The notes under the pieces: generated by a model | Told to the model about the DNA's origin: nothing | Databases searched by the model: none | The model's input: only the letters and a program-made list of their open reading frames with translations | Origin: Candidatus Rifleibacteriota bacterium | Lineage (GTDB): Bacteria > Riflebacteria > Ozemobacteria > Ozemobacterales > Ozemobacteraceae | NCBI GenBank assembly: GCA_022704885.1 | Contig: JAKJFO010000170.1 | Span: 350-8,816 of the forward strand | DNA length: 8,467 nucleotides | Direction of reading: 5' to 3' | Shown: piece by piece, positions 3,472 through 8,294 of the stretch | Position numbering within the stretch: position 1 is the first letter of the stretch | How the letters are laid out: each line of letters starts with the position of its first letter | Translations under genes and position numbers: made by a program

Positions 3472-3587
3472 GCGCTCGTGCTCGTGCTCAGCGAAGCGGT
3501 AATCGTCGTCCTAATCGAAAGGCTCAGAATTTGAAAATGCTCAAAGAAGGCCGCGATTACGATTGCGATTACGATTACGATAAATAG
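3472..3587. repeat. Gene-less pair of inverted hexamer arrays (possible decayed S23-type module)
   Basis: The left arm has GCGCTC (3472-3477), two GTGCTC units (3478-3489), a nine-base interruption, then GTAATC (3499-3504), GTCGTC and CTAATC (to 3516). The right arm has GATTAC (3555-3560), GATTGC, and two GATTAC (to 3578), which are reverse complements of the left-arm type. The arms could fold into a long imperfect hairpin. Read on the + strand, the right arm ends a short frame as DYDCDYDYDK before TAG at 3585-3587. This is the same kind of Asp-Tyr tail that ends the S23 gene at 7856-8257. The 38 bases between the arms are too short for a gene, so this may be a deleted copy or a small non-autonomous relative of that module. 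Confidence 0.7.
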
Positions 3588-7746: not shown

Positions 7747-7762
7747 TTCGCTCTCTCCTTCG

Positions 7763-7828
7763 TTCTCGTTCTCGTAATCGTTCTCGTAATCGTAATCGTA
7801 ATCGTAATCGTTCTCGTAATCGTAATCG
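7763..7828. repeat. Tandem hexamer array, 11 units of TTCTCG/TAATCG
   Basis: Eleven uninterrupted 6-base units run from 7763 to 7828, each either TTCTCG (F) or TAATCG (T), in the order F F T F T T T T F T T. Imperfect related sequence (TTCG, CTCTCC) extends back to the kinase stop at 7746. The array fills most of the gap before the S23 gene. It reads as the reverse complement of the GATTAC units that encode that gene's C-terminal tail, so the gene is bracketed by inverted arrays. The two-state unit composition suggests expansion by slippage from two parent units. Confidence 0.93.
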
Positions 7829-7855
7829 TTCTTTAATCTGTTTTATCGATTCTCT

Positions 7856-8257
7856 ATGAAATTTGACCACGAAAAACTTGATGTTTATCGTATTGCCATC
7901 GAGATGACGGCTTGGGTATTCGAATTGAGCCGAGCTTTATCTGATCTGAACCGTCATACAAAAGATCAGATGATACGGGCTTCTCAGTCTGTACCTTTGA
8001 ATATTGCTGAAGGTAACGGAAAGCGTTCAGAAGCAGATCGTAGGAGATTTTTTGAAATAGCTCGTGGTTCGGCTCTTGAATGTGCAGCTGTGATGGATAT
8101 TCTTCTGGCGTGCAGGACAATTACTCAAGAGCAGGCAAACCATTGTAAGCAACTGCTTTTGCGTATTGTTTCCATGTTAACTCGCATGATCGATGGTAAC
8201 AGTGCTCGAGAAGAGGCTGTCGATTACGATTACGCGCACGAGCACGCGCACGATTAA
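7856..8257 (+). CDS. S23/23S-rRNA-intervening-sequence-type four-helix-bundle protein with hexamer-encoded tail
   Basis: The 133-residue protein matches the four-helix-bundle family first seen in intervening sequences of 23S rRNA genes. Diagnostic features are FDHEKLDVYRIAI (3-15), DQMIRASQSVPLNIAEGNGK (37-56) and FFEIARGSALECAAVMDIL (65-83), with a last helix QLLLRIVSMLTRMI. The family forms a pentameric alpha bundle and may bind nucleic acid; its cellular role is unknown. No 23S rRNA sequence is nearby, so this is a free-standing copy. Residues 123-133 (DYDYAHEHAHD) are encoded by six consecutive hexamers. There is no clear Shine-Dalgarno before ATG 7856, and base composition is visibly AT-richer than in the neighbouring kinase gene. 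Both fit acquisition as a module with its flanking arrays. The gene is intact. Confidence 0.95.
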   Translation: MKFDHEKLDVYRIAIEMTAWVFELSRALSDLNRHTKDQMIRASQSVPLNIAEGNGKRSEADRRRFFEIARGSALECAAVMDILLACRTITQEQANHCKQLLLRIVSMLTRMIDGNSAREEAVDYDYAHEHAHD

Positions 8258-8294
8258 TTATTTCGTGCTCGTAATCGTAATCGTAATCGTAATC
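8222..8294. repeat. Hexamer inverted repeat: coding tail array facing a downstream array
   Basis: Six in-frame hexamers at 8222-8257 read two GATTAC, then GCGCAC, GAGCAC, GCGCAC and GATTAA, the last carrying the stop codon. After a seven-base spacer, 8265-8294 reads GTGCTC then four GTAATC, the reverse complement type. GAGCAC 8240-8245 can pair with GTGCTC 8265-8270 across a 19-base loop, and the two outer GATTAC units pair with GTAATC units at 8277-8288. One mismatched unit lies between. The fold-back could act as a bidirectional transcription barrier between the S23 gene and the convergent yjbQ, or as the right end of a mobile module. Confidence 0.85.

Follow-up and report, generated by a model that had tools for sequence, protein, structure and literature searches.

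Background

The closest described relatives of the unit studied here are the intervening sequences of 23S rRNA genes. According to PMC4990558, the intervening sequence of Coxiella burnetii has an S23 open reading frame inside an insert with inverted repeats, and it is called a selfish element. The S23 start codon is usually preceded there by three tandem copies of the heptamer GACAGAT, and in some strains by two (PMC4990558). A second group is formed by the STRR and TAACTGA heptamer repeats, which are described in PMC4679880 as intergenic arrays of short period in cyanobacteria, Bacteroidetes and giant sulphur bacteria. The author of that paper considers a protein that binds the repeats, as yet unidentified, as a candidate mobile element. 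The term S23 has no occurrence in a text search of either PMC4679880 or PMC4692102 (0 in each), and in the open literature searched we found no paper which links S23 genes with short tandem arrays.

The window, by which we mean the whole stretch of 8,467 nucleotides analysed (Candidatus Rifleibacteriota bacterium, GCA_022704885.1, contig JAKJFO010000170.1), resembles the ribosomal intervening sequences by having an S23 gene between inverted repeats. It differs from them in two respects: its unit stands between protein genes, a kinase gene and yjbQ, and not in a 23S rRNA gene; and its inverted repeats are arrays of hexamers, of which copies without the gene are scattered through genomes. It also differs from the STRR heptamers, since its repeat unit has six bases and its arrays are tied to the S23 gene and to a clade of S23 proteins. 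Other S23 clades mostly have seven bases, and the S23 gene of an Anabaena plasmid adjoins a heptamer array of the STRR type.

Two other systems may be compared. In REP/REPIN-RAYT a single gene family goes together with dispersed short elements which have no gene. The same is found in relatives of the window, and the window itself has one such pair; however, the gene between the arrays codes for S23 and not for a tyrosine (HUH) RAYT transposase. The Avd protein of diversity-generating retroelements has a fold like that of S23 (Foldseek TM about 0.6 to 0.7, E 0.04 and above). Those retroelements contain a reverse transcriptase, whereas none of the eight open reading frames of the window that were scanned has such a domain.

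Results

The locus in the window

The S23 gene is accompanied by three arrays, and a second pair of arrays with no S23 gene is found elsewhere in the window (Table 1).

Table 1. Repeat arrays and S23 gene of the window (positions are numbered from its first base)
Feature	Positions	Strand	Description
Upstream (left) array	7760..7828	+	12 TCG cores, spacers TTC or TAA, period 6
S23 (four-helix-bundle) gene	7856..8257	+	133 aa; PF05635, TIGR02436
Downstream (right) array, inverted	8221..8256	-	Six hexamers CGA/CGC-NNN; codes for the C-terminal tail DYDYAHEHAHD
Outer array	8263..8289	+	5 TCG cores; capable of pairing with the right array
Second pair without S23, left arm	3476..3517	+	In-phase insert TC[A GC GAA GC G]G at 3488-3499
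Second pair without S23, right arm	3554..3580	-	5 CGA cores

The cores of the left array are consecutive, in exact steps of six bases. They contain the 11 units TTCTCG/TAATCG of the original prediction, which had also described five units flipped again after the gene: these are the cores of the outer array. The hexamers of opposite orientation had been assigned to the last 12 codons of the gene. Their number, six, is right (in order CGATTA, CGATTA, CGCGCA, CGAGCA, CGCGCA and CGATTA); they take up the final 11 codons together with the greater part of the stop codon. The right array is degenerate: CGC replaces CGA in two of its six hexamers, so that it does not pass the strict threshold of three consecutive CGA (its value is 2). 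The sequence TCGNNNTCGNNNTCGNNNTCG, with four spaced TCG, is found 13 times in the window and does not appear in any of 200 dinucleotide shuffles. The two further features ascribed to the gene, an AT content above that of its neighbours and no clear ribosome binding site, agree with what we find. Its G+C fraction is 0.443, as compared with 0.541 in the kinase gene, 0.639 in the part of yjbQ present and 0.540 in the window, and inspection of the sequence before the ATG shows no Shine-Dalgarno-like sequence.

The pair without gene had not been mentioned before. It is absent from the orthologous place in Candidatus Rifleibacterium amylolyticum, where other sequence is found; the outer array is not present at its orthologous place in this species either. 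We considered the left and right arrays as the main stem of an RNA and rejected it: in the RNA fold the main partner of the right array is the outer one, not the left. The window has no Rfam match at gathering scores, that is no known structured RNA, and no PADLOC match to a defence function up to E 0.1.

The S23 protein

The identity of the protein given in the original prediction is correct: it matches PF05635 with E 3.7e-25 and 88.6 bits (cut-off 33.8), and the four helix bundle protein family TIGR02436 with 81.7 bits (cut-off 24). S23 is the sole gene between the arrays; no nuclease or transposase match was found there in Pfam or NCBIfam. The predicted monomer has a mean pLDDT of 86, which falls below 50 in the last 18 residues. 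According to Foldseek the predicted fold matches the S23 proteins 2gsc and 2rld, each with five chains in the deposited structure. The S23 family has solved structures whose depositions give an unknown function; in PMC4990558 a solved S23 protein is described as a five-membered ring. The next match is weaker (E 0.04 and above, query TM 0.59-0.71): it is Avd, both alone and in a structure which according to its PDB title is a reverse-transcriptase ribonucleoprotein.

Recurrence of the arrangement

A scan of genome contigs with the S23 gene of the window found 445 relatives, and the analysis used the 80 best loci. By their record titles, these belong to Planctomycetota, Verrucomicrobiota, Kiritimatiellota, desulfobacteria, Gammaproteobacteria, Acidobacteriota, Anaerolineae and others. 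Together with the window they contain 85 S23 places. In a strict count, which requires at least three TCGNNN or CGANNN, TCGNNN arrays are found upstream in 69 of the 85 places and CGANNN arrays downstream also in 69. Such arrays are present in about 1% of the random windows taken from the same loci (35 and 40 of 2930, respectively). The opposite orientation is found in 12 places upstream (CGA) and in 13 downstream (TCG).

When hairpins in phase with the repeat are bridged and at least three cores are required, the left array is present in 70 of 76 untruncated loci, the right one in 68 and both in 64 (five truncated loci of the six-base set were dropped); these loci are not independent, because several genomes contain more than one copy, above all Rhodopirellula solitaria. 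The arrangement of the window recurs in very different bacteria: it is a real feature, neither local nor a one-off. In this respect the original prediction is corrected. In other S23 clades, seven-base versions of the arrangement are frequent.

In the six-base type the right array often lies inside the gene. All 54 arrays of this kind are in the same frame and give (D/E)-X repeats, a regularity which may come from common descent. In 10 of 64 loci the right array is found after the stop codon. A Shine-Dalgarno-like sequence precedes 18 of 76 genes of this type, a count which has no matched control.

Features of the arrays

Left and right arrays match each other as reverse complements. When the right array is read as its reverse complement, the 7-mers which it has in common with the left one amount on average to 0.69 in a first set of loci (n = 31) and to 0.47 in a second one (n = 23), as compared with 0.17 and 0.14 for direct repeats and with 0.09 and 0.013 for permuted loci. 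At least one common 7-mer is present in inverted orientation in 15 of the 23 loci of the second set, and in direct orientation in 5. The order of the spacer units is also partly mirrored, although the effect is modest (0.75 vs 0.68 in shuffled arrays, with a maximum of 0.71 in 500 shuffles).

Some arrays are broken by a hairpin of the form TC[A-stem-loop-stem-G]G, which keeps the six-base phase. In 21 of the 104 distinct frame-matching inserts across the loci collected the stem is perfect, has 2-7 pairs and is closed by a loop of 3-4 nt; shuffling gives a mean of 1.9 and a maximum of 6 in 1000 trials. The loop is GNA or GNNA in 15 of these 21 inserts. GNA-type loops are especially stable in DNA. 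The same motif interrupts the gene-less pair of the window.

The most frequent number of cores is six, both on the left (23 of 70) and on the right (27 of 68) of the six-base loci. Six is also the commonest length among arrays of at least four cores in the regions sampled of three genomes: 11 of 27 in Candidatus Rifleibacterium amylolyticum (G001), 13 of 30 in G054 and 4 of 4 in G005. It is not the commonest in the Thiosymbion genome G009, where four and five prevail, nor in G002.

Repeat period and S23 clades

A broader set of S23 genes has 54 untruncated loci, which come from Pfam-based searches and from one Anabaena plasmid and were picked by score; several of them fall in the six-base clade and a few were already in the first set. 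Loci L214, L215, L222 and L227, which are under the Pfam cut-off, and one truncated locus were left out. With an array score of at least 10, arrays are found upstream in 30 of the 54 loci and downstream in 38. In all, 45 loci have an array on at least one side, 23 of them on both; nine loci have none at this threshold. Control windows reach the threshold in 6 of 166 cases. The commonest period in this set is seven: 20 of 30 upstream and 25 of 38 downstream. The seven-base units are often reverse-complementary across the gene, for example CAGTAGT upstream and CTACTGA downstream in L224. This coordinate-based version supersedes an earlier one on the flanks of the broad set, in which 22 of 59 loci were lost for want of a motif and the strict threshold corresponded to 99% of 208 control windows. 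In the remaining 37 loci arrays were found upstream in 10, downstream in 12, on either side in 16 and on both sides in 6.

In the plasmid pANA02 of Anabaena sp. 90 (L201, 2100-2960) the S23 gene is flanked by cas6 and cas4 of a type I-D CRISPR-Cas cluster. A long GGTGACA/GGGAACA heptamer array precedes the gene, and CTGTCAC units follow it and extend into the annotated start of cas4.

The period of the arrays follows the S23 protein. Among S23 proteins of the HxxLDVY type 97 of 98 arrays have period 6, as compared with 11 of 60 in other S23 proteins; in this comparison some loci are counted twice, and not every member of the clade is caught by the motif. We also placed the periods on a tree of 72 rows (23 picked from 81 six-base rows, and 49 from the broad set), in which 12 rows with no array score of 10 or with another period were left out of the period count. 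The labels 6, 7 and 8 require 3 changes on the tree. When labels are shuffled the mean is 21.1 changes, and none of 200 shuffles is as low. The period-6 proteins are contained in a set of 31 rows with SH-aLRT 99, in a quick tree with few columns and some long branches. The only label of period 6 outside this set is that of L094, a locus of a Thiosymbion genome rich in arrays, and is due to a TCG array which follows the gene. In nine genomes (G002, G004, G006, G007, G008, G009, G010, G011 and G042) there are S23 genes with different periods, which indicates that the host background alone does not set the period.

Arrays without the gene

Arrays are also found without the S23 gene. We searched eight genomes for five spaced TCG, counting overlapping matches, with a control pattern given here in brackets. 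There are 185 (16) matches in G001, 440 (15) in a Thiosymbion genome, 68 (0) in G007 and 50 (0) in G005; the other four genomes have 47 (16), 22 (10), 13 (1) and 4 (0). In G001, 25 array clusters were sampled. The majority do not contain an S23 gene, and no common flanks were seen by eye around the solo arrays among them. In G007 the spacers of most arrays listed are unlike those of the S23 arrays seen in the same genome. A comparison of array flavours in five genomes, in which the regions compared include the S23 loci, gave the own genome as the top match in four of them, but not in G001.

In 145 genomes of one phylum, the six-base S23 type is present in 13 (E up to 1e-20). Eight of these 13 have at least 20 array matches, vs 1 of the 132 others (Mann-Whitney 1.7e-6, uncorrected for kinship); of the remaining five, one has no match and four have 2 to 12. 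A strict dependence of the arrays on a resident S23 gene is contradicted by G036. In this close relative the array pattern is matched 174 times (control pattern, 39), the spacers are those seen in the window, and the search for S23 found no gene. G148 has 65 array matches without the six-base S23 type. Arrays scattered through the genome without any link to S23 would have spoken against the original prediction. The scattering is there, but so is the link: genomes with the gene are richer in arrays, and the period follows the S23 tree.

In G054 a repeat is bounded by inverted repeats of the type CTAGAGGTCGTCCGAAAAGG, as judged by eye from 19 aligned copies. There are 264 candidate places; 40 of them were scored and all 40 matched. 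The repeat contains a left array, a start which in one consensus-like stretch reads MGFGHEKP, the sequence RIVAVLTQLGSE in another frame, which is like the end of S23, and a right array. Most simply, it would be an S23 gene with its middle deleted, as the short peptide likeness suggests. At the DNA level, the inner part of the repeat has no significant match in any of the 80 S23 loci (best E 0.2).

Other repeats of related appearance were also observed. In L257 and L258 a kinase-like gene is followed by an inverted pair of heptamer arrays (GAGTAGT.. and CTACTCG..) with no gene between them; their unit resembles the S23 arrays of L207, which is in the same genome as L257. The Thiosymbion genome G009 has many array pairs (L161-L180) within a larger repeat, which by eye starts near CTAGGATTCCTTGA and ends near GAGGCGAAGCCTCGCTA. 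In Riflebacteria another dispersed, intergenic type of sequence, CACTAAGACACGAAG and CTTAGTGCGAG, is partly inverted (L001 1590-1800, L344 and L345).

Presence, absence and vehicles of the unit

The original prediction of a discrete module agrees with the comparison of orthologous loci. The kinase has a match (E up to 1e-60) in 34 of 39 genomes of the phylum, in some of them only paralogue-like, with about 40% identity. Among the 30 loci read, only that of Candidatus Rifleibacterium amylolyticum has the S23 unit after the kinase, with array lengths different from those of the window. Six relatives (L231, L232, L233, L234, L239 and L241) keep the kinase and yjbQ with a short spacer, and have neither S23 nor a TCG array between them. 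In the rest of the kinase loci read, yjbQ was not found nearby or the contig ends. A solo array of G036, at the one intergenic place tested, is also absent from the orthologous place in G001 and G038.

Near yjbQ, a group II intron (RF00029, with a reverse transcriptase with maturase domain) adjoins TCG/CGA hexamer arrays in Candidatus Rifleibacterium amylolyticum (L001, 6950-9100). By eye, its presumed 5' junction is at the array.

Rhodopirellula solitaria has nine near-identical S23 units of about 605 bases (L023, L025, L030, L032, L035, L036, two in L043, and L079), with 97.3-99.5% identity to a reference copy over 605-772 bases. The stretch which they have in common extends past the arrays, to a palindrome like attC at the right end and a complementary left end. 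An integron integrase is found on a contig with four S23 matches; some S23 units lie on other contigs. These units are apparently integron gene cassettes, and we have dropped them as proof that S23 units move by themselves. Integron integrases over the cut-off are also present in G007, G009 and G003, and none was found above it in G001. In G054 the similar stretch of the copies also reaches past the arrays, to longer terminal inverted repeats. The original prediction of a mobile element which ends in short repeats is supported in part: the block is present or absent as a whole, but in R. solitaria and G054 what is copied goes beyond the arrays. The copies of Rhodopirellula being integron-like, support for mobility of the module comes from its presence and absence and from gene-less copies, and not from observed transposition.

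Discussion

The recurrence of the arrangement, and a period which changes with the branch of the S23 tree, suggest that S23 protein and repeats form one system. The explanation which we prefer, at about even odds, is that the unit is akin to the intervening sequences of 23S rRNA but stands free of the rRNA gene, with arrays which are the putative cognate sites of the S23 protein. It would be a selfish or domesticated module in which two inverted arrays enclose a loop with a single S23 gene, and the arrays would be recognised by the ring-shaped protein encoded between them; array pairs which have lost the gene might persist and spread. We infer that S23 binds the arrays, that the ring sets their geometry and that the module aids its own spread. 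Several observations speak against this explanation: the arrays of G036 and G148, the deviating spacers of most arrays listed for G007, the genomes with the six-base S23 type which have few or no array matches, the nine loci of the broad set with no array at the threshold, the integron-like copies of Rhodopirellula, the terminal inverted repeats of the G054 repeat, whose inner part has no significant DNA match to the S23 loci, and the RNA fold of the window.

A strict period set by the clade, a fixed core, a free spacer and a ring protein suggest, as the simplest model, one core per subunit along a single strand. The array, as RNA or as single-stranded DNA, would wind round the five-membered ring: each subunit would hold one core (TCG in this case) and the NNN spacer would pass between subunits. 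An analogy is found in TRAP, the trp RNA-binding attenuation protein, a ring around which RNA with spaced GAG/UAG triplets is wound. The likeness concerns the layout only, a ring protein with evenly spaced short cores and free spacers, since TRAP has an unrelated fold and another number of subunits. The model draws on this analogy and on the shapes of the two proteins, S23 and Avd, and could account for the fixed core and variable spacer, for a period set by lineage, for the tolerance of in-phase hairpins and for a length of approximately six cores.

The arrays might also be ordinary tandem repeats of the host, produced by replication slippage and spread by unknown means, with S23 genes merely found among them. 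Arrays abound in G036, where no S23 was detected, and in G148, which has no six-base S23 type; most clusters sampled in G001 are without the gene, and array lengths differ between the two species which have the unit of the window. We consider this origin quite improbable, because the period tracks the S23 tree across phyla and differs between S23 genes of the same genome in nine cases. Furthermore, arrays are rare in control windows of the same loci, and the left and right ones match as reverse complements. Even less probable, and by a long way, is that the right array is kept for the acidic (D/E)-X tail as a need of the protein, the left array being incidental. The constant frame of all in-gene arrays would fit with it; however, common descent may explain the frame, some right arrays lie after the stop codon, the left array is upstream of the gene, and there are array pairs with no gene at all.

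A stronger competitor, though still an unlikely one, makes the module a passenger: integron cassettes, MITEs and group II introns would carry it as cargo, and the arrays would only control expression or RNA stability, for example by autoregulation of S23 at its own leader. The palindrome of R. solitaria, which resembles an attachment site, and the true integron integrase on a contig with several S23 copies are in its favour, as are the terminal inverted repeats around the G054 repeat and the larger common ends of the Thiosymbion repeats. The small number of six-base genes with a Shine-Dalgarno-like sequence would agree with such a control, with the reservation given above about this count. In these two genomes, R. 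solitaria and G054, the copying which is visible could indeed be due to another vehicle, either an integron or terminal inverted repeats. Against it, the solo arrays sampled in G001 show no common flanks by eye, this genome has no integron integrase above the cut-off, and G036 has an array at an intergenic place where G001 and G038 have none.

To return to S23 and its arrays as a single system, there is no agreed protein partner for the short tandem repeats which lie between bacterial genes. If a clade of proteins predicts the period of the repeat, the function of S23 and the partner of the repeats become one and the same question. Through such a link, ribosomal intervening sequences, heptamer repeats and hexamer arrays could be traced to one origin. 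We put forward tentatively, as somewhat less than an even proposition, that S23 proteins are the missing partners of the very widespread short-period repeats of bacteria. Each lineage would read its own unit of six, seven or eight bases, with a core that is conserved and a spacer that is free, the inverted pair would be the substrate, and gene and arrays would make up a new protein-repeat mobile system, of which the cyanobacterial heptamer repeats and the intervening sequences of rRNA genes would be particular cases.
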